From positions 62,001-126,000 of the forward strand of contig JAAYAX010000004.1 in the NCBI GenBank assembly GCA_012719175.1: DNA of 64,000 nucleotides. The letters are read 5' to 3'. The notes under the pieces are model-generated. The model saw only the letters and a program-made list of their open reading frames with translations, did no database searches and was not told where the DNA came from. This DNA comes from Methanomassiliicoccus sp. (GTDB lineage: Archaea > Thermoplasmatota > Thermoplasmata > Methanomassiliicoccales > Methanomassiliicoccaceae). The position numbers were made by a program, and so were the translations under genes. Positions 41,152-62,988 of the stretch are shown here, piece by piece. How positions within the stretch are numbered: position 1 is the first letter of the stretch; each line of letters starts with the position of its first letter.

Positions 41152-41500
41152 GGCGGTGAGCTCCGCCCCTACAAGCGGACGGCGGTCGATGAGCTGGTGA
41201 AGGCCTTCTCGGAGCGCACCGGGTTACCGTACACCAACCACGTCCTACGAAGGCAGTTCGCCAAAGACCTACACCTATCTGGCGTGCCCATCGAGACCAT
41301 ATTCTGAGTGTTGGGACACAATGACCTGAAAACGACCTAGATATACCTTGGGATCGATTTGGACGATAATTAAAACGCCATGCTGTAGGCGGCACAATTC
41401 CGGGCTTTCGTCGGAGCGGTAAATGTTTACCGAGCCAGTAGAAAAAGTGGACAGAGCGGGATTTATGCCCACGAAACCATCTGGATTCCTTCAAATCTGC
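41152..41500 (+). pseudogene. remnant of a tyrosine recombinase (3' part)
   Basis: The trace reads GGELRPYKRTAVDELVKAFS, ERTGLPYTNHVLRRQFAKDL, HLSGVPIETIF-stop (TGA 41305), VLGHNDLKTT-stop (TAG), IYLGIDLDDN-stop (TAA). It aligns closely to the end of the intact integrase at 48284-49360, including H-x-x-R, LGH and the nucleophile Tyr. The frame then runs across the 16-bp core at 41446 (ASRKSGQSGIYAHE). Three stops and the missing N-terminus show it is dead. It marks the end of an older element. Confidence 0.8.
41446..41461. repeat. attachment-site core, copy A
   Basis: AGTGGACAGAGCGGGA, identical at 49265 and 61814. Here it is followed by TTTATGCCCAC. The complement reads like a tRNA T-arm plus acceptor end (GGGCATAAATCCCGC then TCTGTCCA). 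Confidence 0.7.
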
Positions 41501-41588
41501 CCCGAGTCAGGGCACCATAAACTCATTCTACCGCATCACTCGGGGACATAAGACAGAGGGCATAGACCCTGAAATCCAATCGAATAGC

Positions 41589-41631
41589 GATAGGGCGTTG
41601 TTCGCTCTATCCGTTATTCCTTTCTTTTTTC
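41589..41631 (+). terminator. hairpin with poly-T tail
   Basis: GATAGGGCG-TTGTT-CGCTCTATC forms a 9-bp stem with one G:T pair (41589-41611), followed by CGTTATTCCTTTCTTTTTT. It lies just inside element E2. Confidence 0.55.
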
Positions 41632-41644
41632 TATCTAAAAGATA

Positions 41645-41707
41645 CTGTTCTCCTGTTCATCTGTTCAAACATACCTTACTGGCCATTGTGAACAGGAGGT
41701 GAACAGA
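41645..41707. repeat. TGAACAG-type repeat cluster near the left end of E2
   Basis: CTGTTC (41645), CCTGTTCA (41652) and CTGTTCA (41661) face TGAACAGG (41689) and TGAACAGA (41700). The same 8-mer recurs at 48177-48228. It could be replication iterons or a repressor site. Confidence 0.5.
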
Positions 41708-42150
41708 GCAGCGGGTTACTGTTAAAAACCCTCTAAAAACGTGCTTTTGCTTTTGCCGTGGGGGGTCCCTGCCGCTGGGCTAGTATGTTGTCTCGTTCAC
41801 CGTCATGGAGTCCGGGCCCGGGCGATCTAAGCAACTAACCCAATCGTATATTATTTCTACAAGTGTGCCTAACTAGCGGGATCACCCGGGGGGGCCGATC
41901 GCCCGTCGCCATGATGAGCGAGGACAAGGACAAATAGAATTATTCTGGTACTTCTTATAATTGTAAATAACCCCTAATGCCAGTAATTAATTCTCATTGT
42001 GATATTTAGAAAGCAGGGTTTATAAACCTGGCCCCCAATACCTTTACGTTAGTGGGGCGTATTTTTTCCATCCCCACCGGGACCGGGACCGATCCCCCGG
42101 ACACAGTTTCAGGACGCCAGCATCAGATGTTAAAAATGAGGTTTTAGAGC
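41708..42150. promoter_or_regulatory. E2 leader and promoter region
   Basis: No gene is seen. It contains the TATA box embedded in the palindrome GGTTTATAAACC (42017-42028), then a possible leader hairpin GTGGGG (42052-42057) with CCCCAC (42072-42077) enclosing six T, and finally AAATGAGGTTTTAGAGC as ribosome binding region before the ATG at 42151. The hairpin with its T-run could act as an attenuator. Confidence 0.45.
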
Positions 42151-42414
42151 ATGTTAGATGATGTTTCATTAGCCCTGGCCCTAGAGAGATTCCTGGCCAA
42201 TGGGCAGACCTGTATAACCAGATACGAATGCCCCGATGGTATGCGCAGGGGCCTCAAAGGGACCATCACCGCCTATACTGACCGCAACGTGACGGTCCAG
42301 CGCCCCAAGGGGGAGATCGTGGAGCTGCCATTGAGGTGTGTTCTTGAGATCGTCACCCCCAGGGAGCCCAGGCAGAGGACCCCCGGCAGCAGGAGAGATT
42401 GGCATGGGCCTTGA
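42151..42414 (+). CDS. E2 small protein, beta-rich
   Basis: The 87-residue protein starts MLDDVSLALALERFLANGQT. The middle GTITAYTDRNVTVQRPKGEI with LPLRCVLEIV resembles strands of an SH3- or Sm-like barrel, but no family can be named. The C-terminal tail is basic. It is the first gene of the E2 operon; its end overlaps the next start by 11 nt. Confidence 0.6.
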   Translation: MLDDVSLALALERFLANGQTCITRYECPDGMRRGLKGTITAYTDRNVTVQRPKGEIVELPLRCVLEIVTPREPRQRTPGSRRDWHGP

Positions 42415-42790
42415 GGACCACCAATGTCAATTCATCAACCCCGAGACCGGCGAGCGCTGCAAGGCTTACGCTCTCCACTCATCCACTCAAGGTCATTGCT
42501 TCCACCATGACGAAGCGAGCGCAGACCTCGCAAACGAAGCACGATCACGAGGGGGCAAGAGAGGCTATTCGGTCACGGTCCCAAAGAACGCTGTTCAAGA
42601 GGTCCAGACTTTAGAGGATCTCAAAGAATACATGAGTGAGATTTTGATAGCCACTCGTGCTGGCAAGCTGGCACCCCCGATCGCTCAAGCGTGTTCATCC
42701 TGCGCGGGGCAGATGGCTAAGATACTCGACCTGGGCGAGCTATCTTCGAGGCTCGAAGCGGTCGAGCGCAAGATCGACGGTGGCCGCTGA
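42404..42790 (+). CDS. E2 protein with N-terminal zinc finger
   Basis: The 128-residue protein starts MGLEDHQCQFINPETGERCK, and AYALHSSTQGHCFHHD completes a C...C...C-x2-H zinc finger, similar to small fingers found in many phage and mobile-element proteins. Then comes a Ser/Arg linker and a helical part (LEDLKEYMSEILIATRAGKL) with a coiled-coil end. The start is ATG 42404 behind AGGAGAG. Its stop overlaps the next start (TGATG). It could be a DNA-binding regulator or packaging factor. Confidence 0.6.
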   Translation: MGLEDHQCQFINPETGERCKAYALHSSTQGHCFHHDEASADLANEARSRGGKRGYSVTVPKNAVQEVQTLEDLKEYMSEILIATRAGKLAPPIAQACSSCAGQMAKILDLGELSSRLEAVERKIDGGR

Positions 42791-43026
42791 TGGTCGAGCG
42801 ATCGCGCATCCGGCAACTCAGCAGGAAGCTAGCCCCCTTAACCGAGGACGAGATCCTTCACCTGAACGTCTTTAGCAACTATCACCCCCCGGTGACATGC
42901 TGGAAGAGCGCCGAGGTCGTCACCCTGGCCGAGTGCCAGGAGTGCCACAGCGGGGCATGTAGGGCCATCCATCTAAGAAGGATCGACAGGGACGGGAACG
43001 AGTGCCTCCCGGGGGCCAGCGAATGA
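42790..43026 (+). CDS. E2 small Cys-containing protein
   Basis: The 78-residue protein starts MVERSRIRQLSRKLAPLTED, with VTLAECQECHSGACRAIHLR as a possible metal site (C-x2-C-x4-C). It is unrecognised. It overlaps its upstream neighbour by 1 nt and its downstream neighbour by 4 nt, so it is clearly a gene of the operon. Confidence 0.55.
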   Translation: MVERSRIRQLSRKLAPLTEDEILHLNVFSNYHPPVTCWKSAEVVTLAECQECHSGACRAIHLRRIDRDGNECLPGASE

Positions 43027-43235
43027 GGGCCGACAAGCTGAGGGCCATCGAACGCAGAACATCGGCTCATAAGCCCCGCGTACACGTTCTGTTTACTATC
43101 GAGCACGATGACCATACCGAGGTTTCTGGATGCATCCCCGAGGACGCCCATGAACATGATACATGTCTTAGAATTTTATGGGATTTTACCGATACTAACG
43201 AGGCACAAACATATGATATCAGCAGCAGTCAATAG
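43023..43235 (+). CDS. E2 small protein
   Basis: The 70-residue protein starts MRADKLRAIERRTSAHKPRV, acidic in its second half (EHDDHTEVSGCIPEDAHEHD). It overlaps the previous gene by ATGA and the next by 23 nt. No family is known. Confidence 0.5.
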   Translation: MRADKLRAIERRTSAHKPRVHVLFTIEHDDHTEVSGCIPEDAHEHDTCLRILWDFTDTNEAQTYDISSSQ

Positions 43236-43743
43236 AGTAAATGATCTAAAAAGAGAGCTAGCCATCGCGGAGAATGCGGTTATAGAGGCCACCAGAGCCC
43301 AGGAGCGCCTCTGTTCGACCCGCCCTTGTCCGGAGGATGGGACATCTCTCAACATAGGCCCCCTGCCCGATAAAGAGGGTCCACAAGGCGCCCGTACCAA
43401 TACCGCAGAGTGTGAGAAGTGCGGCCGCTTGTGGTCCGTGCATATCGTGTACTCAGGCGGAGATCGCCTAGAGCCGAAATCGTACTTTTGCGATTTCGAC
43501 CACCGGGGCTATATTTGGGACGATGCCCCGGTCTCGAAGCTAACCAATGAGCAGCTCCAGCTAAGTAAGGACCATATCGCCCAGTTAGGTGAGGCCGCGA
43601 TCCCGGCGCAGAGGGACCGCCTGAACGCTTTGATTCATGAGGAAATTCTGCGCCTGGATGCTAGAAAATTAGACATGATTCAAAGCCAAAACGCTTCAAT
43701 TATTGAATTACTAAAGCAAGCTATATTCAAGGATGGGAATTAA
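43213..43743 (+). CDS. E2 coiled-coil protein with zinc ribbon
   Basis: The 176-residue protein starts MISAAVNRVNDLKRELAIAE, a coiled coil. A zinc ribbon CEKCGRLWSVHIVYSGGD...CDF follows at about residue 72, then a second helical part with LDMIQSQNASIIELLKQAIF at the end. The start at 43213 is chosen because the upstream part of this frame overlaps the preceding gene; GAGG lies 9 nt before it. The function is unknown. Confidence 0.5.
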   Translation: MISAAVNRVNDLKRELAIAENAVIEATRAQERLCSTRPCPEDGTSLNIGPLPDKEGPQGARTNTAECEKCGRLWSVHIVYSGGDRLEPKSYFCDFDHRGYIWDDAPVSKLTNEQLQLSKDHIAQLGEAAIPAQRDRLNALIHEEILRLDARKLDMIQSQNASIIELLKQAIFKDGN

Positions 43744-43744
43744 A

Positions 43745-44044
43745 ATGACAGACCCTGTATACACCATAACCAATATCAGCACGAGAGTGACAGGCGATCT
43801 TCGCCTAAAGCACCTGAAATTCACGGTCTCGAAATACGTGACAGGTGGCATCGCCATTGACCCAACTAACGATCTTGGGTTTATCGAAGGAAGCTTCGTC
43901 TCCACCCTCGGAAATGGGTTTAGCCCCGGCAAGGGCTTCTTTGTGTATGATGGCGAGTTGCTGAAAGTATACACCACCGCCGATACTGAGGCCGAGGACG
44001 GTTCCGACGTGGGAAGTTGTGAAATGTTCATGTGGGGCAAGTAA
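43745..44044 (+). CDS. E2 small beta-rich protein, possible virion component
   Basis: The 99-residue protein starts MTDPVYTITNISTRVTGDLR and is rich in Thr, Gly, Val and Phe; GFIEGSFVSTLGNGFSPGKG and FFVYDGELLKVYT look like beta-strands and glycine turns of a small structural or tail-like protein. ATG 43745 is preceded by GGATGGGAATTAAA; an ATG four codons upstream is also possible. No database family can be named. It is the only E2 protein that might be structural. Confidence 0.5.
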   Translation: MTDPVYTITNISTRVTGDLRLKHLKFTVSKYVTGGIAIDPTNDLGFIEGSFVSTLGNGFSPGKGFFVYDGELLKVYTTADTEAEDGSDVGSCEMFMWGK

Positions 44045-44218
44045 ATGGCCGGAATAAAAGGGGCGGTCTCGGAGGTGAGTGGGGGGCCGGAATCGATAAA
44101 AATAGCTATCGACGCCATGATCGGGGCTATATCTGTGGCCAGTGGCACCGTGCCTAGCATAGCGATTGTAGGATCCCTCCCCCGCTTCGAGGTCATATTC
44201 GTTTACCGCGAGGCTTGA
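44045..44218 (+). CDS. E2 57-residue protein
   Basis: A short gene starting directly after the previous stop codon (TAA-ATG). It encodes MAGIKGAVSEVSGGPESIKI, then AIDAMIGAISVASGT and ends LPRFEVIFVYREA. A single amphipathic helix and two strands are likely. The tight packing between two genes on the same strand supports it; the function is unknown. Confidence 0.5.
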   Translation: MAGIKGAVSEVSGGPESIKIAIDAMIGAISVASGTVPSIAIVGSLPRFEVIFVYREA

Positions 44219-44220
44219 GC

Positions 44221-44841
44221 ATGACAGAATATCTCAAGATTCAGCGGCTCAACGCCTTAGAGAGCAGGACCAAGGGCAGGCTCGAAGAGCGTAAAAAACA
44301 GAACCTACCGCCTAAAATGAAGGAACTTCTGGACATGATGGACCGTGAGCAGCTCGCCATGATCGCCAATGACCGCAAGGAAGCCCAGTGGGAAAAGCGA
44401 GAGCTGGAGCGCCTGTATAAGAAGGGAGAACCGGGGGACCTTTTTGACCCCCACCCCGAGCTACATCAAGGAAAATATACAGAAGAACAGCGCGAGCAGA
44501 TCCGGGTCCGGTGGGGTCTCCCTAAGTATATCCAAGAGATCAGGGGACTGAGCCTGGACAAGGTCCTAAGCATCGGCGCTTCGTTCTCTAAGGCGGTGGA
44601 CGAGTTCAACGCCAGTGGGCAAAAGATAGACTCTAGTGAGTTCGAGGTCCTCAAGGTGGCCGTCCAGATGCTCAATCAGCACGTTGGCGATTATGCCGAG
44701 GAATATACCAAGCGTTACGACGAGATAGCGCAAATGCAGGACCACGGGGCGAGAAACTTAGGTCGTTCAAGGCCAGCCCCTCAACCTCTAAAAAGGATGC
44801 TGGCCGACAGCGGCAGACCATCTAACAAGAGGGACTACTAA
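44221..44841 (+). CDS. E2 charged helical protein
   Basis: The 206-residue, highly charged protein starts MTEYLKIQRLNALESRTKGR. Most of it is helical, with coiled-coil segments (MDREQLAMIANDRKEAQWEK and EVLKVAVQMLNQHVGDYAEE). The Arg/Pro-rich tail (RSRPAPQPLKRML) might bind nucleic acid. The start at 44221 follows GAGGCTTGAGC. It resembles scaffold or adaptor proteins of mobile elements in composition only. Confidence 0.55.
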   Translation: MTEYLKIQRLNALESRTKGRLEERKKQNLPPKMKELLDMMDREQLAMIANDRKEAQWEKRELERLYKKGEPGDLFDPHPELHQGKYTEEQREQIRVRWGLPKYIQEIRGLSLDKVLSIGASFSKAVDEFNASGQKIDSSEFEVLKVAVQMLNQHVGDYAEEYTKRYDEIAQMQDHGARNLGRSRPAPQPLKRMLADSGRPSNKRDY

Positions 44842-45002
44842 TGGACGACACCGAGGCCCACCGCGACGAGCTGGAGGGGGGCATCCTGGCCGCTTCCAAG
44901 GTCCTTATGTTCTCAGCCCCCAACACCGGAAGCTACCGGGCCGCATTGAGGAAGTTAAAGGACCTCATAATGAAGCTGGACCTAATGGAGCCAGCAAAGT
45001 GA
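44841..45002 (+). CDS. E2 53-residue helical protein
   Basis: A short gene overlapping the previous stop by one base (TAATG). It encodes MDDTEAHRDELEGGILAASK and ends with LRKLKDLIMKLDLMEPAK, two helices. Its place at the end of the packed operon supports it. The function is unknown. Confidence 0.5.
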   Translation: MDDTEAHRDELEGGILAASKVLMFSAPNTGSYRAALRKLKDLIMKLDLMEPAK

Positions 45003-45357
45003 CGCTCGCTGGCCCTTCCTGTCGTTGGTCGTCACATCCCAGCGTCAGCGGGGCTTCGAGAGGGGCTGATGGCCTGATGTCCTTCCAAGACGGTCTAGGC
45101 TCCTGGCCGTCAGGGTGTACCTTCTCCGGCATCCTGGCGGCCAAAACCCACTTTCAGTCACCCCATAACAAAGCATTTACTATCCGTTCAGATTAGGAAA
45201 CATGTCAATAACACTGGGTTTAAAGCGAAAGGTGCTGGGGTACTCCCCCATCACCCGTGGAACCAGATAGGGATGTTATTGGAACCAATGAGGAAGGAGG
45301 AGATGATTTGGAGTGAAAAAAGAATAAAAATGTAAAAATTTTAAGGATTAGATATAC
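45003..45357. other. E2 intergenic region with two hairpins
   Basis: No gene is supported. TGGCCGTCAGG (45104-45114) pairs with CCTGGCGGCCA (45133-45143) in an 11-bp stem with one G:U. GGTG-CT-GGGG-TACT-CCCC-CAT-CACC forms a second hairpin at 45231-45255. One may be a terminator or a small RNA. The A-rich end (about 45315-45345) should be the promoter for the replication genes. Confidence 0.4.
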
Positions 45358-45528
45358 ATGCCAAACAATGACAACAACAGATCATCCCAGACGTTTGGGG
45401 TTGTGTTAGAAACCGATATTTTGAACGTGCCTGCGATTTTGGACGCCCTTAACACCATTCCTGGCGTGAGGATAAGAAGCCAACGCATATCTTCTGGAAG
45501 GCTTCGCTTCGTTGAGCTAGATAAGTAA
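45358..45528 (+). CDS. E2 56-residue protein before the primase gene
   Basis: A short gene starting MPNNDNNRSSQTFGVVLETD and going on ILNVPAILDALNTIPGVRIR, then SGRLRFVELDK. The beta-alpha-beta pattern (VVLETDILNVPAILDALN) looks like a small ferredoxin-like or ACT-like fold. AAGGATTAGATATAC precedes the ATG. It stands 13 nt before the primase gene and is surely co-transcribed with it. Confidence 0.55.
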   Translation: MPNNDNNRSSQTFGVVLETDILNVPAILDALNTIPGVRIRSQRISSGRLRFVELDK

Positions 45529-45541
45529 AGGGGGCGTCAAG

Positions 45542-48223
45542 ATGGGGAAGGAAAATTCGCTATCCTCAGTGGATACTCTCAAGCCGAACGATGGTCCCCC
45601 AGAGGACCAGAAGAACTGGCTTATGGTGCTGGATATAGAGGCCAGGGCTCTCCATCATCCCATTATGGTTCAAAGGGCTCCCGACTTCAAGGATGGGAGG
45701 TGGCTATTCTGCGATGATATTGGAAGAGGATTCATCCACGCCCGGACGATCCTTCCCAATGAGCTTGTCTTTGATTTCGACACTGAGGACTGGCTAATCG
45801 TCAAGGAGGAAGGCGACAAGCTCTTGAAATTCATGGACGGGCAAGATATCCCATACCTTCTTACATATACCGGAGGCAAGGGAATCCATGTCCATGTATT
45901 CTTCGACATCAACGCTTTAGGTCTGCCACCGGAGCTGTTGCCGGGAAGGGAGGGCAGAAGTAAGACCGGAGTTGATACGTTTAACGAACTCCGGGTCTGG
46001 CTCTACAAGAACATAGTTAAAGCAGCCAATGTCGATGGGAAACGGGCCAAGCTTGACGCAACCCGATATAAGTGGGGTGCGGATAAGAGTGGCCAGCTCA
46101 TAAGAGAATTGGGGTGCGTCCGAATCGATGGGGGGCGAAAGGTGATTTTACCTTCGATACCGGACCACCGACCATCAACGGGTGAATATCCAGTCTGGTT
46201 TCCCGATGATGTAAAGTTGTGGGACCCTGGGGTTCTTTCACAAAGTGCATTGGAAGAGCTGGCTAAGAAGGATAAGAAGGTTAAAAAAGAGTCTCTGTCG
46301 GTGAATGCCATCACCTCCCCCCTGATGGCTTTTCCCTGCTATCGTTACATAATGGAGAACGGAGCCCCGAAGGGTCACCGCCATAATGGGGCTTTAACCT
46401 TGGCATTGATGAACCGATACAAGGGCCGTAGTGAGGCCGAGGCCGCAGAAGATATCAAGACATTTACAAAGGTATCCTTCGAACCCTCTCCTGAGCAGGA
46501 AGTCGAGAACCTGGAGACCCTTTCCAACATCTATAAGTCAGACATGGGTTGGAGTTGTGTCCTTATCCGGGATGCGTTCGAGAAGTCCTGTAATAAGAGC
46601 TGGTGCCCCTTGTGCCAAGCTCCGAAGGTTGAAGGGAAGGACGAACAACTGGAAAAGGACATACCATCCAGGATAGTAGAAATTGCGTTAAATGGGGAGG
46701 AAAACACCCTATTCCACGATGATTATGGAGACCCATATATCAGAGCCCGTCAGAACGGGCATTGGGAGATAATGCCGATAAACGGCTCCCTGGGCAAGTG
46801 GTTGTCATATCAATATTGGAAAAAATATAATAAAGTGCCGGGGTCCGATGGCATCAATTCGGCGCTTACCGTTCTCAAGGGGCGGGCGATCCACGAGGGA
46901 GAACAATATTCTCTTCATGTTCGAGTGGCAGAGCATGACGGGGCTTTCTGGTATTATCTCAGTGACGAGCAGAGACGGGCGATAAGGATAGATGGCAACG
47001 GCTGGAATATCGTTGAGCCCCCGATTCTGTTCAAGCATTATGCCCATATGCTCCCCCAGGACGAACCGGAACGTTCGACCAGGGGTGGGCATCTCGATGA
47101 TTTCCTTAAGCTATTGAACCTAAAAAAGACCGACAGGGACTTTTTCAAAGTAATGCTCGTGGTCGATCTGGTCCCCGGCATACCTCAGATAGGGTTAAAC
47201 CTGACCGGCCAGCAGGGGTCCTGTAAGACCACCGCAATGAAACTTGAAAAGATGCTGATCGACCCGTCGAGCGTCGTTGTCGTCTCCAAGATCAAGGATG
47301 AGGATGAGCTGATCCGCATCTTCGCCAAACACCATATCGTCGCCTTCGATAATGTTTCTCGCATCCCTGGAGACATTGGCGATCTGTTCTGTCAGGCCAT
47401 CACCGGAGGGGCCATGACCACCAGGGCCAAATACACCGATGACGACGATTTCATTCGCTCCTTTAAGATCATATTGCGTCTAAACGGGATAAGCAACGAG
47501 GCGCGAAAATCGGACCTATTGGAGCGGCTCATAATCCTCGACCTGGACCGCATTAAGGATGATGAAAGACGGTCTGAGGAAGAGATATGGTCAGACTTCT
47601 ATACAGATCGCAAGTACGTTCTAGCTGAACTATTGGACCTATTATCTGAGGCCATACGAAAGAAAAAAGATATGGCGAGATCCACAGCCCCCCGGATGGC
47701 CGATTGGTTCCATTGGGGGGAGGCCGTCGGCATGGCAATGGGCCATGAACGAGAGTGGTTCCGTGAAAAGTTCAAAACATACGAGGACCGCCAGGACAAT
47801 GAGGCCATAGAACAATCCATATTGGCCACCCTCATCGAGGAAATTGTTAGGGTGGGGGAGCCATTCATTGGGACCGCTACCGATCTCCTTTCTGCGCTAA
47901 AAAACCAAGCGGATATGGATGGGATAAACACCAAGGTCCGAGAATGGCCTTCGGATGGCGTTGTCCTCGGAAAACGTCTAACCCCTCTTATCCCGAATCT
48001 TGAAAAAAATGGCATCCATGTAGAGCGGATAAGATATGATAAGCTATCCATGGAACAAGAGGAGGATTTGGGCAACAGGGACCCCAACCGGATATATCGC
48101 CCCCAGGATAGGATAGTCGTTATCGAGCGGCCACCGGAACAGGACAAGAACAAACCGGGTTCTGAAAAGAAAGCTACCTGTTCAGGGAAGCCAGATGCTA
48201 ATTTTAAACAGATGAACAGGTGA
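45542..48223 (+). CDS. E2 primase-helicase replication protein (AEP plus SF3/AAA+-type helicase)
   Basis: The 893-residue protein is the probable replication initiator of E2. The N-terminal third is an archaeo-eukaryotic primase domain: FDFDTED (metal-binding D78 and D80), GGKGIHVHV (111-119, catalytic His). A Cys cluster SWCPLCQAP (near 355) may be a zinc site. The C-terminal half is a helicase-type ATPase with Walker A GQQGSCKTT (556-564), Walker B AFDN (D603) and sensor region FKIILRLNGIS. This primase-helicase fusion is typical of plasmid and virus replication proteins. TGAACAGG repeats overlap and follow its 3' end. Confidence 0.88.
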   Translation: MGKENSLSSVDTLKPNDGPPEDQKNWLMVLDIEARALHHPIMVQRAPDFKDGRWLFCDDIGRGFIHARTILPNELVFDFDTEDWLIVKEEGDKLLKFMDGQDIPYLLTYTGGKGIHVHVFFDINALGLPPELLPGREGRSKTGVDTFNELRVWLYKNIVKAANVDGKRAKLDATRYKWGADKSGQLIRELGCVRIDGGRKVILPSIPDHRPSTGEYPVWFPDDVKLWDPGVLSQSALEELAKKDKKVKKESLSVNAITSPLMAFPCYRYIMENGAPKGHRHNGALTLALMNRYKGRSEAEAAEDIKTFTKVSFEPSPEQEVENLETLSNIYKSDMGWSCVLIRDAFEKSCNKSWCPLCQAPKVEGKDEQLEKDIPSRIVEIALNGEENTLFHDDYGDPYIRARQNGHWEIMPINGSLGKWLSYQYWKKYNKVPGSDGINSALTVLKGRAIHEGEQYSLHVRVAEHDGAFWYYLSDEQRRAIRIDGNGWNIVEPPILFKHYAHMLPQDEPERSTRGGHLDDFLKLLNLKKTDRDFFKVMLVVDLVPGIPQIGLNLTGQQGSCKTTAMKLEKMLIDPSSVVVVSKIKDEDELIRIFAKHHIVAFDNVSRIPGDIGDLFCQAITGGAMTTRAKYTDDDDFIRSFKIILRLNGISNEARKSDLLERLIILDLDRIKDDERRSEEEIWSDFYTDRKYVLAELLDLLSEAIRKKKDMARSTAPRMADWFHWGEAVGMAMGHEREWFREKFKTYEDRQDNEAIEQSILATLIEEIVRVGEPFIGTATDLLSALKNQADMDGINTKVREWPSDGVVLGKRLTPLIPNLEKNGIHVERIRYDKLSMEQEEDLGNRDPNRIYRPQDRIVVIERPPEQDKNKPGSEKKATCSGKPDANFKQMNR

Positions 48224-48228
48224 ACAGG
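48177..48228. repeat. TGAACAGG repeats before the E2 integrase gene
   Basis: CCTGTTCA at 48177-48184, TGAACAGG at 48213-48220 and 48221-48228. The same 8-mer occurs near the left end of E2 (41652, 41689). They end 55 nt before the integrase start. Confidence 0.55.
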
Positions 48229-48283
48229 AAAAATGGCATTGTAAGAGGTCCCATGTCCGTTCTTATATCTTCGCAGCTCCATA

Positions 48284-50945: not shown

Positions 50946-51042
50946 GCGGTGACCTTTTGAATATTTTTCATCGAATTAAATGACTCAGGGCATCCATTTG
51001 AAAAGGAAGTTAAAGGAAGGGTTGAGGTTTTACGGAATGTGA

Positions 51043-53961: not shown

Positions 53962-54217
53962 ACAACCATAATTGATATTATACCGATAAAACTAGGCGCC
54001 CTGGTTCCTCGTTAATGAGATAGGTATGGAGAAGTCGTCAGATATTAAAAGAGTCGAAGAAAAGGACACAAAAGGGCTTTTTTACAACCAGCTTAGAAAG
54101 AAGATTCCTCCGCCGTAACGAGCTTTACCAGCTAGCTTCAAGTTCATCCTAAACTAGGGCTACTTTAGGATTGCTGGACCAAGATTCATTAGTACCATAC
54201 GACATGATTACGACATC

Positions 54218-54814
54218 ATGCCAGATGGGGATATTTGGAAGCGACTGGAGGACGAACCTCCGAGAGCATATCAGGCCTTCGAGCAGCACCTCAACCTCGG
54301 ACCCGGGAGGTCAGTGGTGGAGCTCTCCAAGACCGATAAGGTGAACGTTTCCCTTCGACAGCTCCAGCGGTATTCGGTCGATTACTCTTGGAGCGAGAGA
54401 GCTCTCGCCTGGGATGATCACTGTTTTGAACTCTCCCGACAGGCCAGCGAGCGGGAATATGTGAAGATGTCCCAATATCACGCCGAGGCCTCGCGAGCTC
54501 TCATCAAAAAGGGCATGAAGCGACTTGAGCAATTGGATTCGGAGAAACTCACCCCGGCCGACGCTGGACGTTTTATCGTAGATGGCATCAAGGCCGAGAG
54601 ACTGGCCCGAGGCCTAACCACGGAGAGCACGAGTACGAGCCTAAACGCCAACATGAAGGTAGAACATGACCGCTTCCTCACCATCCGAGCCCTCCAGGAC
54701 CCTGGAGTATCAGCAACCATCGACCAGCTCCTCGAACAGCTCGCTAACCCTAGCCAGACTCTCCCCGGCCGGACTAGCGATAATGGCCAGCCGTGGGAAG
54801 TGGATTCCCGCTAA
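54218..54814 (+). CDS. terminase small subunit-like protein
   Basis: The 198-residue protein starts MPDGDIWKRLEDEPPRAYQA. The following FEQHLNLGPGRSVVELSKTD with LRQLQRYSVDYSWSERALAW and DDH matches the N-terminal helix-turn-helix pattern of small terminase subunits of tailed viruses, which recognise the packaging site. It overlaps the large subunit gene by 32 nt. The central part is helical. The function is inferred from the motif and from its partner. Confidence 0.75.
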   Translation: MPDGDIWKRLEDEPPRAYQAFEQHLNLGPGRSVVELSKTDKVNVSLRQLQRYSVDYSWSERALAWDDHCFELSRQASEREYVKMSQYHAEASRALIKKGMKRLEQLDSEKLTPADAGRFIVDGIKAERLARGLTTESTSTSLNANMKVEHDRFLTIRALQDPGVSATIDQLLEQLANPSQTLPGRTSDNGQPWEVDSR

Positions 54815-56150
54815 ACATCTGAGGCTCCTGGACCACAAGCTCCGGGACGTGGCTACGGGATACTGCCCGAGGCTTATCATCACCATGCCTCCCCGTCATG
54901 GGAAGTCCATGCTCGTAAGCCAATACTTTCCGCCCTGGTTCCTGGGCACGTTCCCGGATAAGCGGGTCATGCTCGCCTCCTACGAGGCCGGATTCGCGAG
55001 CTCCTGGGGCCGGAAGGCCAGGGACATCATGGAGGCATACGGTCCAGCCGTGTGGGGGATCCAGGTCAGAGAGGATTCCAAGGCCTCCGACCGATGGGAC
55101 CTCAAGGGACACCCAGGAGGCATGGTCACGGCCGGAGTGGGGGGACCTCTCACCGGGAAGGGAGCGGATGTCCTCATCATTGATGACCCCATCAAGAACG
55201 CGGAGGAGGCGAGCTCCAAGGTCATCCGGGAGAAGGCCTGGGAATGGTATCAATCGACCGCCTACACGAGGCTAGAACCGGGAGGAGCGGTCATCCTGAT
55301 TCAAACGCGATGGCATAAGGACGACCTCGCCGGGAGGCTCCTGAGCCAGAAGGCCAGGGGAGGGGAGAAATGGGACGTGCTCAACCTTCCCGCCATCGCC
55401 CCGGAGGGAGACATCCTCGGCCGAGTTCCCGGAGCTCCGCTCTGGCCGGAGCGGTTCGACCTACCCCGCCTCCGAGCCATCAAGGACACCGTGGGGACCT
55501 ATTTCTGGATGGCCATGTATCAACAATCACCGACCGAGCCAGGAGGGAATATCCTCAAGCGGGAATGGTTCACATACTACCGCGATGTCCCCGAGCTCCA
55601 TTTCATCGTTCAATCCTGGGATTGTGCCTTCAAGTCCGGGAAGGCATCGGACTATTCGGCATGTACGACCTGGGGCCAGACGCCCGGAGGCTACTGCCTC
55701 CTGGACGTATGGCGAGGCCGAGTAGAATACCCGGACCTCATCCGTATGGCACGAGCTCAATACGACAAGCACCGCCCCCACGCGGTCATCATCGAGGACG
55801 CCGGGAGCGGCCAGTCGCTCCTCCAGGACCTTCGCCGGGAGTCGATCATTCCCGCTCTGCCCATCAAGGCGACCAAGGACAAGGAAACGAGGGTCAATGT
55901 CATATCCCCGCTCTTTGAGTCCGGCCGGGTCCACTTCCCCGAGAGACACGAGCTCCTGGCCGACCTCCAGGAAGAGCTCTTGAACTTCCCCAACGCAGAG
56001 CATGACGATATGGTCGATTCCATTTCCCAGGCTCTCGCCTACCTCAAGGACGGCGAGAGCGTGAGCTCGGGGTGTTCCGACGTGCTCCTATGCAATGATA
56101 CCGGACTGGATGACCTCTTTGAGAACCGTCGCTGGAGGGAGATATTTTAG
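54783..56150 (+). CDS. terminase large subunit
   Basis: The 455-residue packaging motor has an ATPase domain with Walker A PPRHGKS (36-42), Walker B VLIIDD (Asp134-Asp135) and coupling motif QTRWHKDD. The C-terminal RNase H-like nuclease starts at QSWDCAFKSGKASDYSA (Asp280) and ends with AEHDDMVDSISQAL. It cuts concatemers and pumps DNA into a procapsid of a tailed virus. The start is ATG 54783, the first codon before the family begins. It is full length for the family. No portal or capsid gene follows, which is unusual. Confidence 0.92.
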   Translation: MASRGKWIPAKHLRLLDHKLRDVATGYCPRLIITMPPRHGKSMLVSQYFPPWFLGTFPDKRVMLASYEAGFASSWGRKARDIMEAYGPAVWGIQVREDSKASDRWDLKGHPGGMVTAGVGGPLTGKGADVLIIDDPIKNAEEASSKVIREKAWEWYQSTAYTRLEPGGAVILIQTRWHKDDLAGRLLSQKARGGEKWDVLNLPAIAPEGDILGRVPGAPLWPERFDLPRLRAIKDTVGTYFWMAMYQQSPTEPGGNILKREWFTYYRDVPELHFIVQSWDCAFKSGKASDYSACTTWGQTPGGYCLLDVWRGRVEYPDLIRMARAQYDKHRPHAVIIEDAGSGQSLLQDLRRESIIPALPIKATKDKETRVNVISPLFESGRVHFPERHELLADLQEELLNFPNAEHDDMVDSISQALAYLKDGESVSSGCSDVLLCNDTGLDDLFENRRWREIF

Positions 56151-56197
56151 TCTGATTAGCGGAATAGTAATAACCTCTAGCAAATTTAACATGTATA

Positions 56198-56371
56198 ATG
56201 AAGCGAATCCTCTTGTCCATCACGCTCCCCCCGAGCGTCCTTTCTAGGGTCGATAACGAGCGGGGACTAATTCCCCGGACCCGGTATATCGAGAGCCTAA
56301 TCACCTATGCCATGAAAGAGAACGCCCCCATGCCCAAGGCCTCCACCGCCATACCGGGGGCGAGCTCGTGA
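56198..56371 (+). CDS. E3 ribbon-helix-helix protein
   Basis: A 57-residue gene. MKRILLSITLPPSVLSRVDN then ERGLIPRTRYIESLITYAMK is a classic ribbon-helix-helix domain (strand, then two helices). It probably regulates E3 genes. The end overlaps the next start by GTGA, and its last five codons (GASS-stop) share 16 bases with the 58334 gene end. Confidence 0.65.
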   Translation: MKRILLSITLPPSVLSRVDNERGLIPRTRYIESLITYAMKENAPMPKASTAIPGASS

Positions 56372-56916
56372 TAGGCCGGGAGGATATCGACTTCCTGGCT
56401 AAGAAGCTCGGATATGGGGACATGAACGCCCTCCAGGAAGAACGCAAGGCCGAGGCTCGAGCTCGTGCCGAGGCGAAGCGAGCGGAGGAGGAGCGAGCCC
56501 GTATGGAGGAGGCCAGACGCTATCAGGAGGCCATCGACCGGGAGATCGTTGAGGGATTCCCCCGGATGACCGTCACCATCAACGGCCAGAACGTCGAGCT
56601 CCAGGATATCAAGGACCTGGGGAAGATGACCTGCCCGGAGTGCGAGAAACCCCTATCTTATGCTCGGGACCTCATGCTCCAGGCCGTTCGCGGAGCTAAC
56701 CTACACGGCGATGATTACCGCAATCTCCTTAACAAGCCGTTCGGCCACTACTTGACCACCATATCGGCCGATAACGACCGCCTCCCCCAGATACCCGAGG
56801 TTATCACCTTCCAGGGGAAGTGCCGTTGTCCCGAGTGTAAGGCATCCTTCCCCATTTACATTCGGGCCCTCTGCGTCCACGATGGCGAGCTCGTGCGGAG
56901 GCCCTCATGTCCGTAA
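56368..56916 (+). CDS. E3 coiled-coil and zinc-ribbon protein
   Basis: The 182-residue protein starts at GTG inside the previous stop. An N-terminal part (MIGREDIDFLAKKLGYGDMN) is followed by an Ala/Glu/Arg coiled coil (residues 23-55) and then a CPECEKPL ... CRCPECKASF zinc ribbon, with the two CxxC-type pairs about 65 residues apart. The function is unknown; it may be a DNA- or packaging-related factor. It overlaps its downstream neighbour by 10 nt. Confidence 0.6.
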   Translation: MIGREDIDFLAKKLGYGDMNALQEERKAEARARAEAKRAEEERARMEEARRYQEAIDREIVEGFPRMTVTINGQNVELQDIKDLGKMTCPECEKPLSYARDLMLQAVRGANLHGDDYRNLLNKPFGHYLTTISADNDRLPQIPEVITFQGKCRCPECKASFPIYIRALCVHDGELVRRPSCP

Positions 56917-57137
56917 TCGAGTTCACCCCTGAGGAGGCCCGGACGGGCCGTTTCCGAGGCCCTGTGGCCATGCTCCACGGACCGACATCTTCCACCGAGA
57001 GGACATCGCCCCCAACGATCGACCTAAGCGATAAGGAGGTCCTGGAGCTCCTGAACGCTGGCCAGTGGGAGGAATACGTCGCACTAAAGAAACTAATCTT
57101 CGCCCTCATTAACGAAGCCAGGAGGATATCCATCTGA
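56907..57137 (+). CDS. E3 small helical protein
   Basis: The 76-residue protein starts MSVIEFTPEEARTGRFRGPV and has a helical end (LSDKEVLELLNAGQWEEYVA). The start lies in the end of the previous gene. No family is known. Confidence 0.5.
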   Translation: MSVIEFTPEEARTGRFRGPVAMLHGPTSSTERTSPPTIDLSDKEVLELLNAGQWEEYVALKKLIFALINEARRISI

Positions 57138-57387
57138 CCATGACCGGGGAGTTGGGCAATCGTCCTTCTGGTTCATCTCCCCGGCCGTTCAAACCTCTAT
57201 TTGATATCTCTGGACCATCATACGGTCCTGGGGGAGGTGGCGTCCATCGGACCCTGCCCCCACCATACTCTTGGACCGGGAGGCGATGCGGTCTGGGGGA
57301 GAGCACCTGGGGACTCCTCCCCCCAACAACTTTTACAACCAGTTCGGTTAAAAAGAATGATGAAGAACAGATCTCCGTGAGGGAGGG

Positions 57388-57561
57388 TCAGCGCCTTTCC
57401 TTAGATTCTTGCCGTTCCTTATCTTCTGCCATCATTGCAAGGACAGCCTTCTCGACCGCAAAAGACCGACTTGCGAAAGTACGGTCCTCCACCTTCCTAT
57501 CGAGCCATTCTAAGACCTCTGGGGGTAGGGTCAAGGATATGGTTTCGCGCTTTCTCTTCAT
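57388..57561 (-). CDS. E3 ribbon-helix-helix repressor
   Basis: The 57-residue protein starts MKRKRETISLTLPPEVLEWL and goes on DRKVEDRTFASRSFAVEKAV. It is a ribbon-helix-helix protein and strongly similar to the one at 62796-62966 (LPPEVLxWLDxKVxDRTFAxRS shared). It is divergent from the gene at 57658. The inverted repeat at 57622-57640 in the region between is the likely operator. Confidence 0.75.
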   Translation of the reverse strand: MKRKRETISLTLPPEVLEWLDRKVEDRTFASRSFAVEKAVLAMMAEDKERQESKERR

Positions 57562-57621
57562 GCAATGCAAGATAGTGCACGACAGTTTAATATTCATCTA
57601 TTGTGTAATGGTGTATTGCCA

Positions 57622-57640
57622 TGTTATGCACGACATAACA
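57622..57640. promoter_or_regulatory. inverted repeat, likely RHH operator
   Basis: TGTTATG-CACGA-CATAACA is a perfect 7-bp inverted repeat with 5-nt spacer, directly before the ribosome binding site GGAGG of the 57658 gene. CATAAC also occurs beside the paralogous RHH gene at 62973-62978. Confidence 0.6.
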
Positions 57641-57657
57641 ATATGGAGGAAATGAAC

Positions 57658-57873
57658 ATGACACGACAAGACACCTCAATGGTGAGGAAAGCCCTGTTCC
57701 AGGAAGGCCTCGGAAAGGACCTGGACCGCACAACCAAAGAACTGTTGGACAGCGCCGAGCGCCTGTCTTGGACAAACGGCATGAGCATTGTTGCTATCGA
57801 ACGCTGGCTAGACTATGTGGAAGCCGCTGTGAGGATACTGCGGGCTGCACGACTCAGTAACGGAGGGAGTTGA
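57658..57873 (+). CDS. E3 small helical protein
   Basis: The 71-residue protein starts MTRQDTSMVRKALFQEGLGK, then helices (LLDSAERLSWTNGMSIVAIE) and ends LRAARLSNGGS. ATG 57658 lies 8 nt after GGAGG; ATG 57652 two codons earlier is possible. It starts the second E3 operon, running to the AAA+ protein. Confidence 0.55.
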   Translation: MTRQDTSMVRKALFQEGLGKDLDRTTKELLDSAERLSWTNGMSIVAIERWLDYVEAAVRILRAARLSNGGS

Positions 57874-57875
57874 AC

Positions 57876-58019
57876 ATGGTGATACTAGCCATAAGGATCG
57901 AGGAACACGATTTGACCTTACTTAAAAACAAGGCAGAGGAGCTTCGCATACCTTTCACCGTCCTAGCCAGATCATTGATCGTGACCGCCTTGAATGAGAA
58001 AGAGTCCATTGGACCTTAA
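57876..58019 (+). CDS. E3 47-residue RHH-like protein
   Basis: A short gene two bases after the previous stop. MVILAIRIEEHDLTLLKNKA then EELRIPFTVLARSLIVTALN is consistent with a small ribbon-helix-helix fold (strand and two helices). It overlaps the next gene by 26 nt. Confidence 0.5.
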   Translation: MVILAIRIEEHDLTLLKNKAEELRIPFTVLARSLIVTALNEKESIGP

Positions 58020-58329
58020 GCATCAAGGTTACGAGAACAAACCCGGGGCCGTGGTGTCACGCCGGCAAGCAGAAACACCCCGGACCGGGCGGCCAAACCC
58101 CTTCACGAAACCACAACGAGCGAGGTTAAGGCAAATGTATGTTAGAGACAAGTTGGAACATAAAGGTGTCGAGGACCCAAACGAGCCCCGCGGCACCATT
58201 GCTGTTGTAGCGCGAATGTACTTGAAGGACATGCCCGCCTTCGTCCAATCGGTTGAGGGAATCCCAGGGGCACGGCTAATATATCAGAGGACCAGCGCCG
58301 GTAAGTTGCGCATTGTGCCTGAGGAGTGA
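57994..58329 (+). CDS. E3 basic protein
   Basis: The 111-residue protein starts MRKSPLDLKHQGYENKPGAV. It is Arg/Lys-rich with a disordered first half (RRQAETPRTGRPNPFTKPQR) and a folded second half (GTIAVVARMYLKDMPAFVQS). It is probably nucleic-acid binding. The function is unknown. Confidence 0.5.
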   Translation: MRKSPLDLKHQGYENKPGAVVSRRQAETPRTGRPNPFTKPQRARLRQMYVRDKLEHKGVEDPNEPRGTIAVVARMYLKDMPAFVQSVEGIPGARLIYQRTSAGKLRIVPEE

Positions 58330-58333
58330 GCTC

Positions 58334-58540
58334 ATGCATCAGGATGGGAGAGAACGCCGCCGGCGAGGCGTGATCTACGCGGTAGCCAATCGCTATAACG
58401 TCCTCATCGAATCCGAGCTCCTCGATGCCCTACTGGACCTATTCAGCGATCCAGTCGAGGCTGTGGGCGAGGCTGTCGGCAATATGCGGCCGGATGAGAT
58501 CGTGCTCAACATCGACCACTTCATGGGGGCGAGCTCGTGA
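58334..58540 (+). CDS. E3 small protein before the AAA+ gene
   Basis: The 68-residue protein starts MHQDGRERRRRGVIYAVANR, with helices YNVLIESELLDALLDLFSDP. ATG 58334 lies after GAGGAGTGAG. It ends GASS-stop, overlapping the next start as GTGA, the same junction as at 56356-56371. The helical pattern recalls N-terminal helices of replication-protein subunits, but I cannot name it. Confidence 0.5.
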   Translation: MHQDGRERRRRGVIYAVANRYNVLIESELLDALLDLFSDPVEAVGEAVGNMRPDEIVLNIDHFMGASS

Positions 58541-60636
58541 CGTCTGATGAGACACTATTCTCTAAGGTGGAGGCCTACCTGGAGGAGGTGCCAGGAGCTG
58601 ATCCCCGCTGCTGGGTAAATGTACTCCGTCCGGGTATGAAGAAGGCAGAAGAGATCAGCTATCGCGAGCTACTGGCCCGTCCGTCGGTCATCCCTGAGGA
58701 CAAGATCATCAAGCAGGAGGCGAGCAAGCAGTACAGGGCGCTAATCAAGGAGTGGAGGCTCAAGGCCGTCGAAATCAAGCCGGTCGCCCCTACCTTCGAG
58801 ATCAGGAGCGTACAATCGGACCGCTCTCCCCATGCCAAAGGCTTCGACCTCACGAAGCACATAACGATTTACTACATCCTTGACGGGAAGGAGCACCAGG
58901 ACGTGCCGTCCTCACTGGACCGCATGATCAGGGAATCGCCCGAGAGGTTCCCTCCAGATGTGGCGGCGATCGCGCGGAAAGCCGTTCTCGACAAGGTGAA
59001 GAGCCTCCGGGAGCAATGCAAGCCCATAGAGACGGCCGCCAGCGTGTCCGAGGCCGAGGAGGTCCAGGACATCGCCCAGGCACCGGAGGACGTGCCAGCG
59101 GCCATGACAGAGGCCTCGGCGCCGGACATAGAGACGCCAGCCGAGCCGGTTCCAGGAGCAGAGGTGACAGAGCCGCAAGCTGTCTGTGAGGCAGAGAGCA
59201 TCAACCGATTTCTGAAGATCTCCCGGGAGCAGGGAGAGGGGCCCGCGATCGCAGCCAAGCGGGCGGAGGAAGCCCCGCGAGTGGCATTACAAGAACAGAA
59301 GGCCGAGAAGGTTCGGGCAGAAGATGAGGAGCTTCTCCGGAACGGAGGATGGTGGGACGTGATCGATCAGGCGATTAATGAGTTCTTAGCAGGGGAGCCA
59401 CAGCTGAGGAAAGCCCTCATTTACTCCGCCCTCTCCTCCAGCTTGGAAGATAATAAGTTCCATATGATGGCAATCGGGGACTCGCAGATAGGTAAATCCT
59501 ACGCCATGAGGACGATCGGAACCAAACTCTTTCCCGACCGCTTCATGAGCGTCGCCAGCATGAGCGGCAAGGCACCGTTCTATGCTGCGAAGGATGCCGG
59601 CAATCCTCAACTGTTCAAGGGGAAGGTGCTGTTCGTCGATGAGTTCGCGGATCAATCAGAGGCGACACAGGACTTCGTGAAGGCGGGGATGTCTCCCGGT
59701 GTGAAGAAGCTCACCAACATGACCCTTGATGAGCATAGGAAGTCAAGCGTCCAGGACCTTGATGGGCTCCCGGTCTTTTGGTTAACCGCGGCGGAGGTCC
59801 TGGAGGATGCCGAGGGGCAGATCATGAACCGGCCATTCGTCGTGAATCCTGACGAATCGCGGGACCAGACTGAGAACGTCCTCAAATTCCAGCGGGAAGC
59901 TGCCTCCGTTAAGCTCATTGAGTTCATCGAGTCAAAGATCCCCCAGGCCCAACGGCTACTGGAGCGCGTCCTGGAAGAGAAGAACCTCATCGTCTACAAT
60001 CTATTCGTCGATCATGTCAAGATCGGAGGGAAGGATGCAAAGGCCAGGAACACTCTCCCGATGTTCTTCAACCTGGTGGCCGCTGTTGCCTATGCTCACA
60101 GATTCGCCCGGCCGGTGATCGAGCTCCCTGATGGTCGTAAGCTTTTATTCGCCAACTATCAGGACAACGTCGAGGCGGCGGAGCTTTGGGGATGGGCGAG
60201 CGGTCCCAAGTCCACTGGGCTACCGGCGCGGCATATCGAACTGCTGAAGATCCTCCCAGTCTTCGCCGGGTCCATCACCGGCGGGCTGCTGCTCGATGAC
60301 ATTGTGGAGATCTACACCTCCAAGACCGGACGGAAAGTAAGCCATAAGACCGTCCTTAACTACCTCTCCGACCTGTCGAGCAAGGACAAGGCGACCTATT
60401 ACGAGACCGAGGATGAACATGGTAAAAAGCTTCATTTATGGTATTCGACAGGCTCATCCCACACCTTCCCAATGGCTTCCCAACTGCTAATTGGGATGGA
60501 ATCCAAGGAGGGAAATAAATTACTGGATGAAGCGCTAAAATCGTTAATAACTGCCTCATCCCAACTTCCCAACGAAATTAGAAAAAGAATAGATGGATTG
60601 AGAGAAGAGCTCCTCGGGCAAAAAAACGGCTTCTAG
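58537..60636 (+). CDS. E3 AAA+ replication ATPase/helicase
   Basis: The 699-residue protein starts at GTG. Residues 1-260 are a variable region with a long Ala/Glu/Pro-rich linker (about 165-215). The ATPase core has Walker A GDSQIGKSY (314-322), Walker B VLFVDEFAD (Asp368-Glu369) and an MCM-like downstream part (TLDEHRKSSVQDLDGLPVFW). The C-terminal part looks like a winged helix (TSKTGRKVSHKTVLNYLSDL). It is the probable replicative helicase of E3. TCCCAAC motifs occur three times near its 3' end (60478, 60559, 60567). Confidence 0.8.
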   Translation: MTSDETLFSKVEAYLEEVPGADPRCWVNVLRPGMKKAEEISYRELLARPSVIPEDKIIKQEASKQYRALIKEWRLKAVEIKPVAPTFEIRSVQSDRSPHAKGFDLTKHITIYYILDGKEHQDVPSSLDRMIRESPERFPPDVAAIARKAVLDKVKSLREQCKPIETAASVSEAEEVQDIAQAPEDVPAAMTEASAPDIETPAEPVPGAEVTEPQAVCEAESINRFLKISREQGEGPAIAAKRAEEAPRVALQEQKAEKVRAEDEELLRNGGWWDVIDQAINEFLAGEPQLRKALIYSALSSSLEDNKFHMMAIGDSQIGKSYAMRTIGTKLFPDRFMSVASMSGKAPFYAAKDAGNPQLFKGKVLFVDEFADQSEATQDFVKAGMSPGVKKLTNMTLDEHRKSSVQDLDGLPVFWLTAAEVLEDAEGQIMNRPFVVNPDESRDQTENVLKFQREAASVKLIEFIESKIPQAQRLLERVLEEKNLIVYNLFVDHVKIGGKDAKARNTLPMFFNLVAAVAYAHRFARPVIELPDGRKLLFANYQDNVEAAELWGWASGPKSTGLPARHIELLKILPVFAGSITGGLLLDDIVEIYTSKTGRKVSHKTVLNYLSDLSSKDKATYYETEDEHGKKLHLWYSTGSSHTFPMASQLLIGMESKEGNKLLDEALKSLITASSQLPNEIRKRIDGLREELLGQKNGF
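60478..60573. repeat. TCCCAAC repeats before the E3 integrase gene
   Basis: Exact TCCCAAC at 60478-60484, 60559-60565 and 60567-60573, all inside the AAA+ gene. The same heptamer (both orientations) clusters at 49434-49512 at the left end of E3. Confidence 0.4.
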
Positions 60637-60646
60637 GGTAGGTACG

Positions 60647-61813
60647 ATGAAAACTCCTTTACCTCCTAGCCGGCTACCGTCCTCCGAGGCTAAACCTCAT
60701 GCAAAACGCAAGAGGCGCCTCAGCTGCACGGCCGCGGAGGTTGAAGCGTTGAGATTAGGACGCTATCCTTTCGCCGCTGCGATTCGGTATTATCTTGAGC
60801 GGAGATATGGGACGGTAGCCGAATCTACGTTCAAGGAGGAGGAGCGGAAATTGAGGTATATTGCCGGGATATTTGAACAGCTCAAGGTCGAGGCAGACCA
60901 ACGGGACGCCGAGACCGCAGGCAAGGCTAGGGGCTTCGAGAACCTCAGGCCGTTCACTACCGATCCCCGGCACATCGGACGGAGGGAAATCCAGGACTTC
61001 ATGGCATGGATGAGGAAGCAAGGCCTAGACCCCAACACCCAAGCGAAATATCTGGCCCACATGAGGTCTTTCCTTAAGATCTTCAAGAACCACACTATTG
61101 CCGATATGGACGCGGACGGGGTCCGGTTCCCCAAGGGAAACAAGAAGCCGATCAGGGTCCTGAGCACCGAGGACCTCCAAGCCATATTCACCACCCTGGA
61201 TGATATGCTGGGTTGGAGAGGATCAGTGGCGCGGGGGATGATCGCTCTCTCCTTCGCAACAGGCACTCGACCAAAGGAGTTCCGGCTCTCTCACCTGGAG
61301 GACCTCGATCTAAAGAAGATGACGTTCTTCGTCCGCCACCCCAAGGGCGAGGGCTCTTGGGCATCGGCAACGGAGATCGACATCATCCGAGAAGATATGG
61401 TCCCCTTCCTGGAGCGCTACCTCCGGGAGAGAACTGCCTATCTCAAGGAGCATGGCATCTCCAAGGCGGTGCCCATGTTCCCTAACCTCTATCGGGGGCT
61501 GGATGAGTTCTACTCGGCAAACGCCTTCTACATCATCAAGCACGATGTCGAGCTCGCCTCGGGCGTGGACTTCAAGTTGAAGGACTTCCGCTCGACGCTG
61601 ACCTCGATCACCGTGAACAGTGACATGAGCCTCCTCCCCGCCATGTCCGCGCAGCTGAGGCATAAGACGATTGGCCAAACCCAAAAATCATACTACCGCA
61701 TGGAACAGGGGGCGGCCGGCAAGCAGTTAAGGAATGCCTGGAAGAACGGTCCTGCAATAGTTCCCCAAAAAGGGGTTATTGACTCGAAATACGAACCATC
61801 TGGATATAATTAG
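60647..61813 (+). CDS. int: E3 tyrosine recombinase (integrase)
   Basis: The 388-residue integrase has an N-terminal basic region, a core-binding domain (IQDFMAWMRKQGLDPNTQAK) and a catalytic domain: Arg208 (TGTRPKEF), Lys in RHPKGEG, Arg315 (KLKDFRST; the first His of H-x-x-R is Lys), His339 (LRHKT) and Tyr349/Tyr350 (KSYYRM). It is clearly different from the E2 integrase in sequence. Its stop codon TAG is the base pair next to the 16-bp core at 61814, the same gene-to-att layout as in E2. It should act at the same type of site. Confidence 0.9.
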   Translation: MKTPLPPSRLPSSEAKPHAKRKRRLSCTAAEVEALRLGRYPFAAAIRYYLERRYGTVAESTFKEEERKLRYIAGIFEQLKVEADQRDAETAGKARGFENLRPFTTDPRHIGRREIQDFMAWMRKQGLDPNTQAKYLAHMRSFLKIFKNHTIADMDADGVRFPKGNKKPIRVLSTEDLQAIFTTLDDMLGWRGSVARGMIALSFATGTRPKEFRLSHLEDLDLKKMTFFVRHPKGEGSWASATEIDIIREDMVPFLERYLRERTAYLKEHGISKAVPMFPNLYRGLDEFYSANAFYIIKHDVELASGVDFKLKDFRSTLTSITVNSDMSLLPAMSAQLRHKTIGQTQKSYYRMEQGAAGKQLRNAWKNGPAIVPQKGVIDSKYEPSGYN

Positions 61814-61829
61814 AGTGGACAGAGCGGGA
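61814..61829. repeat. attachment-site core, copy C
   Basis: AGTGGACAGAGCGGGA directly after the integrase stop codon, followed by TTTTAAACCG and AAACTGTCTGGAT. It shares TCTGGAT with copy A at the same distance. Confidence 0.7.
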
Positions 61830-62978: not shown

Positions 62979-62988
62979 CTTATACCAA

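Follow-up and report, generated by a model that had tools for sequence, protein, structure and literature searches.

Here, we describe a locus in the genome of a Methanomassiliicoccus species, hereafter G000, at which integrated elements stand in tandem beside a transfer RNA (tRNA) gene. The window, meaning the whole 64,000-nucleotide stretch that was analyzed, is G000:C4:62001-126000, and positions are given in window coordinates. A 16-mer, AGTGGACAGAGCGGGA, occurs in exact plus-strand copies at 41446, 49265, and 61814, as a preliminary description of this DNA had reported. At up to three mismatches, the window holds four matches to the 16-mer, compared with a chance expectation of 0.69. A search of the whole genome reveals a fourth exact copy at G000:C4:130467, which corresponds to window coordinate 68467 and lies 4.5 kb past the window end. 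ARAGORN identifies this fourth copy as the 3' end of a minus-strand tRNA-Ala(CGC) gene. The tRNA gene (L004:1502-1575) forms one end of the array, and exact copies of 16–19 bp are present at three of three junctions. An Rfam scan of the window returned no matches. A D-loop origin of the repeat was considered from the sequence and dropped once ARAGORN had placed the repeat at the tRNA 3' end.

From left to right, the locus consists of an integrase remnant, core 1, element A, core 2, element B, core 3, element C, and core 4, the last being the tRNA end itself. The core-to-core spacings are 7819, 12549, and 6653 bp, and the elements measure 7.8 kb (A), 12.5 kb (B), and 6.7 kb (C). Each element carries one integrase of its own (IntA, IntB, or IntC), and all three possess the PF00589 domain. 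The remnant (41152–41460, plus strand) translates into the C-terminal ~100 aa of an integrase, is interrupted by four in-frame stops, ends in core 1, and matches IntC with E=3.1e-19. It is the stub of an older, mostly lost fourth element. Taken together, these features very probably mark an array in which three mobile elements, and the stub of a fourth, have been integrated in tandem at the tRNA-Ala(CGC) 3' end. The preliminary description overlooked both the target tRNA gene and the third element, which extends beyond the window edge. Its central proposal, step-wise accretion at one attachment (att) site with an integrase adjoining that site, is borne out by the cores, the tRNA, the integrase families, the arm motifs, the empty sites, and the similar arrays elsewhere, all of which can be read directly in the DNA.

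Two integrase families on one core

IntA and IntC are 37.5% identical, whereas IntB yields no significant BLASTP match to IntA and a match to IntC at only E=0.006. The elements had been called unrelated, which is accurate for IntB relative to the other two integrases but not for IntA and IntC, which are distant relatives. The proteins RepA, RepB, and RepC, one per element, exhibit no significant pairwise similarity.

The integrases meet their cores in different ways. IntA (48284–49360, plus strand; PF00589 E=5e-17, catalytic residues aligned) is encoded by an open reading frame (ORF) whose last 80 nt (49281–49360) extend into element B. Its length is 358 aa in the present array, with predicted lengths of 333 aa at the tRNA and 351 aa in its own circle. 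IntC, which is encoded outside the window (L009:6438-7487), is an intact tyrosine recombinase. Its ORF enters the tRNA and ends there at a TGA stop supplied by the strand opposite the T-loop (AGTGGACAGAGCGGGATTTGA), yielding 349 aa at the tRNA and a predicted 382 aa in its own circle. The IntB gene (60647–61813, plus strand; PF00589 E=2.5e-6) ends with a stop codon that abuts core 3, where the right arm is CTGGATAT. Thus, the earlier placement of each core at the 3' end of a tyrosine recombinase gene stands for the remnant, IntA, and IntB, with the correction that core 2 lies inside the IntA ORF and that IntB stops immediately before its own core. In SSV-type integration, attP, the attachment site of the circular element, lies inside the catalytic part of the integrase gene, which is split on integration. 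Here, the core is at or after the last codons, and the catalytic domain is intact when integrated.

Similar relationships are found across the order. IntB-like genes end 0–2 nt from tRNA 3' ends (Pro, Ala, Lys, and others) in most such loci. IntA/C-like genes read 20–22 nt into tRNA-Ala (CGC, GGC, TGC) in most cases and otherwise stop close to tRNAs for Ile, Val, Pro, or Met. Between them, the two types of homologs abut the 3' ends of Ala, Pro, Arg, Lys, Ile, Val, and Met tRNAs.

Short arm motifs flank the core, and they differ between the families. At left ends of the IntA/C type, CTGG is present at offset 35 in 9 of 11 cases (0 of 5000 shuffles), while all four IntB-type left ends carry CCAG at offset 33. 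At right ends, the IntA/C type has GCCAG 6–8 nt before the core, and the IntB type has CTGG(A/C)TAT directly before it. The two integrase families therefore have roughly mirror-image arms around one core. Within the array, core 1 (41446–41461, plus strand), the left end of A, is followed by CTGG at offset 35 (41481). Core 2 (49265–49280, plus strand), shared by the right end of A and the left end of B, is followed at offset 33 (49298) by the IntB-type arm CCAGATGG. Core 3 (61814–61829, plus strand), shared by the right end of B and the left end of C, is again followed by CTGG at offset 35 (61849). These left-end arms stand 7–13 kb from the integrases of their elements. In all 11 elements for which both ends are known (7 IntA/C, 4 IntB), the left-end arm is of the type that goes with the family of the right-hand integrase (Fisher p=0.003, to be taken as a guide only, since the elements share ancestry).

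The mechanism we propose is as follows. On each element circle, attP would consist of the 16–19 bp tRNA 3' end with an arm motif on either side, and the element's own tyrosine integrase would recombine attP with the tRNA end. The copy brought by the element would restore the tRNA, and the old copy would turn into the left end. Because a functional core would be left beside the tRNA after each insertion, later elements would enter between older ones and the tRNA. Accordingly ordered, the most distal elements would be the oldest. The elements may remain mobile, perhaps excising as single or composite circles.

Gene content of the elements and their flank

Element A (~7.8 kb; 41462–49264, plus strand, bounded by exact cores) contains small ORFs, RepA, and IntA. 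RepA (45542–48223, plus strand; 893 aa) has a primase-like N-terminal part and a P-loop region. Its primase matches are weak (PHROG 16345 E=0.004; LigD Prim-Pol E=0.05), and it has homologs in other elements. The left part of element C (61830–64000, plus strand) holds a serine recombinase gene and small ORFs, and the Prim-Pol/helicase protein RepC is encoded outside the window (L009:4109-6325; Prim-Pol domain E=3e-20). The small serine recombinase (62053–62694, plus strand) lies just inside the left end of C. An enzyme 86% identical to it is encoded at the equivalent position in a G007 element whose integrase is different. Could the recombinase of C have a role in resolving circles or dimers?

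Element B (~12.5 kb; 49281–61813, plus strand) was delimited by cores, composition, and ORFs, and it comprises AT-rich cargo, terminase genes, small ORFs, RepB, and IntB. The cargo begins with a plus-strand pair (49793–50945) encoding a HATPase-domain protein (49793–50662) and a STAS-like DUF4325 protein (50628–50945). A minus-strand gene for an MmeI-like type IIG restriction-methyltransferase follows (51043–53961; 972 aa; PADLOC REase_MTase_IIG, 1120 bits). This block (49793–53961) has about 42% GC, and it is a possible defence module. Beyond it, on the plus strand, lie the terminase small subunit (TerS; 54218–54814; PHROG 6299 E=1.8e-20) and the terminase large subunit (TerL; 54666–56150; PHROG 38 E=2.5e-117). 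By alignment, the Walker A, Walker B, and nuclease motifs of TerL are all intact.

RepB (58537–60636, plus strand) is a P-loop protein of 699 aa encoded upstream of the integrase gene, a position also seen in other elements. It has no match in Pfam, PHROG, or NCBIfam, and a PDB search with RepA and RepB produced nothing useful. An AlphaFold model of the RepB helicase part, built with no alignment, had a pLDDT of 35 and was discarded. The P-loop and the gene position suggest that RepB is a replication helicase. Each interval had been said to hold a complete replication-plus-integration set. This is so for A, with its primase-like gene and integrase, and likewise for C; it is less sure for B, where the replication role of RepB is inferred.

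No portal or capsid gene was recognized among the element B ORFs scanned; a terminase or other packaging-hijack gene without a full capsid set is one feature expected of a phage satellite. There is about an even chance that element B is not its own kind of element but what remains of a head-tailed provirus after decay and loss of the structural genes. TerS and TerL are virus hallmark genes, and the contig G009:C27, from the same genus, encodes a TerL with 51–53% identity to that of B, followed by portal-like and capsid-like ORFs (assigned by reading, not by family search). Against decay, TerS and TerL of element B are intact with their catalytic motifs kept, the element is compact, with a replication gene, an intact integrase, and matched att ends, and a comparable terminase-only element has been published in Thaumarchaeota (NitKor-E1, PMC6563490). 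The second possibility, which we consider rather improbable, is that element B is an autonomous archaeal virus satellite. Such a satellite would rely on its own TerS–TerL, replication gene, and restriction enzyme, would borrow the capsid of a head-tailed virus, and, by being stacked with A and C, could swap integrases. A relic origin is at least as likely. Given two terminase-only cases in different archaeal lineages, the satellite proposal deserves testing.

Other relatives of the element B TerL exist in IMG/VR contigs at 43–47% identity, and one such contig (L123) has a portal-like ORF downstream. The G009:C27 genes belong to a head-tailed provirus-like block (L145, 6804–13496) with a small terminase-like ORF, TerL, and portal-like, head-morphogenesis-like, and capsid-like ORFs. 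The portal-like protein of this type has no relative in the G000 genome.

Combinations of replication and integrase genes differ among genomes. Specifically, RepB-like genes have different neighbors, which are IntA-like (74%) in G013 and IntC-like in G126, and an IntB-type element in G007 carries a C-like serine recombinase (86%) together with a C-like primase part (91%). RepB is thus found with IntA-, IntB-, and IntC-type integrases, and the C-type primase with an IntB-type integrase. We infer that replication and integrase modules have been exchanged by recombination between co-resident elements. Module exchange in tandem arrays has been proposed for archaea (PMC8371274). Viral contigs contained no relatives of RepA, RepB, or RepC.

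To the left of the array, methyltransferase and corrinoid-protein-like genes occupy 32978–36752, and a fasciclin gene (38698–39036) precedes a heliorhodopsin gene (40092–40895, plus strand; PF18761 E=3e-90). The G000 genome contains mcrA, which marks a methanogen and, with the methyltransferase genes and an order of about 147 species, fits the Methanomassiliicoccales. The heliorhodopsin gene, directly left of the array, thus belongs to an mcrA-bearing archaeon. DNA homology of this flank to G012 ends at 41148. In G012, the homologous heliorhodopsin block (78% DNA identity) is about 17 kb from a tRNA-Ala(GGC) gene that bears an IntB-type remnant. Given that proximity, the block may be cargo of a lost element.

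Related sites and alternative explanations

The 16-mer is present in 10 of 147 genomes of the order, distributed over two genera. It occurs once in each, except in G000 (four copies) and G004 (three copies), and in the loci examined the single copies are at tRNA-Ala(CGC). An empty site was sought in relatives, and tRNA-Ala(CGC) genes with no adjoining integrase are present in two other genera of the family, in G007 (C12:336410) and G008 (C6:79266). Synteny holds on the right: the gene at window-equivalent position 82496 is the right flank of this tRNA in G007, G008, G011, G012, G014, and others. No empty site with the left flank was found in the same genus, where the loci examined either have an integrase, or what remains of one, next to this tRNA or are interrupted at that point; several of the comparison genomes are draft assemblies with the site at a contig end.

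Tandems of this sort are also seen at other tRNA sites and in other families. G004 contains a tandem with three cores. In G007, an IntB-type element is followed by an IntC-type element at tRNA-Ala(GGC), and in G125, an IntB-type right end is followed by an IntC-type element at tRNA-Ala-CGC. G126 has two cores of a tRNA-Ile-like site, and G010 and G014 have decayed left ends. G000 itself carries a second IntB-type element of ~16.7 kb, with a RepA-like gene, at tRNA-Pro(GGG) (L155:17358 to L150:14098; G000:C5:67358-84098). In G014:C4, an IntB-type element at tRNA-Pro(TGG) has an IntB-type right-end motif (CTGGATGGGAA) in front of its left end (L156:16234), which suggests another tandem array.

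Several points weigh against a tandem array of separately acquired elements. The heliorhodopsin block beside the remnant is at another locus in G012, leaving the left chromosomal boundary unclear, and the only left-flank genes held in common with G007, the methyltransferases, are in inverted order. The array is known from one G000 assembly, though similar arrays exist in independent genomes.

Three other explanations can be compared with stepwise arrival. It is very unlikely that a single element was tandemly duplicated and then diverged. The homology of IntA and IntC and the arm layout common to the left ends of A and C would fit such a history, but the three Rep proteins share no significant similarity, IntB belongs to another family, and the closest relatives of each module reside in other genomes, as exemplified by the serine recombinase and primase part of C, whose counterparts are in G007. 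Slightly less probable still is an assembly artefact in which separate contigs were joined through a short repeat. A 16-bp repeat does stand at each join, but the join is inside a 665-kb contig, assemblies typically rely on overlaps far longer than 16 bp, and G004, G007, G125, and G126 have comparable arrays. Least probable of all is that the core is merely a conserved coding tail (SGQSGI) duplicated with related integrase genes, the intervals not being elements: the remnant, IntA, and IntC do read SGQSG(I/N) in frame through the core, but this idea is ruled out by the identity of the core with the tRNA 3' end, by the unrelated IntB, which stops before a core that nonetheless comes next, and by left-end arms that match in type the integrase found at the opposite end, while the codon preceding the shared TGG varies at positions 1 and 2 but has an invariant C at position 3, the opposite of what coding constraint would produce and a pattern indicative of DNA recognition.

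Comparison with known systems

Phage-inducible chromosomal islands (PICIs) and other phage satellites resemble element B in size class and in possessing an integrase, a replication gene, a terminase gene, and defence cargo. Element B differs in that no G009-type portal is present in the G000 genome and no helper virus was identified. Neither A, B, nor C corresponds to an integrative and conjugative element: no conjugation genes (relaxase, VirB4/TraD-like ATPase) were found among their proteins scanned, a set that covered all larger proteins with Pfam and some with PHROGs or NCBIfam and that left out a few small ORFs.

In gene content, element B comes closest to NitKor-E1 of Nitrosopumilus koreensis, a cryptic integrated element that encodes TerS, TerL, a restriction enzyme, and a tyrosine integrase but no further virus genes and that was judged a likely relic (PMC6563490). 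Element B differs from it in having a type IIG restriction-methyltransferase, a large P-loop protein, the HATPase/DUF4325 pair, and a tandem setting, and in belonging to a different archaeal lineage. Element B is thus a second archaeal terminase-only case and a possible satellite.

Tandem islands targeted to tRNA genes are already known. Among 3919 islands, the Islander database lists 125 tandems of at least two islands and 4 of at least three (PMC4383910). As in G000, the islands of such a stack share one tRNA gene, and every one of them comes with a separate integrase and a separate displaced tRNA fragment. Relative to these, the G000 array combines three islands and a remnant stub, two integrase families of opposite arm polarity on one core, and a methanogen lineage with repeated examples. 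Archaeal mobile element arrays at tRNA genes likewise have a tyrosine recombinase adjoining the att site, a tRNA 3' end as target, and re-use of that site (PMC8371274, PMC6563490). Methanomassiliicoccales are absent from the text of the review PMC8371274, and the concordance of arm with integrase and the specific module reassortments were recognized in the present analysis.

The G000 array is therefore an unusually informative further example of a known arrangement. That a given replication module is repeatedly paired with more than one type of integrase makes tandem arrays likely places for modules to be exchanged. For archaeal att sites, an influence of nucleotides flanking the core has been reported (PMC8371274), and at this well-bounded natural locus, one and the same 16-bp tRNA core is used by two unrelated integrase families whose arm layouts are opposite. 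With the core shared and the arms opposed, attP recognition by archaeal integrases becomes directly testable.

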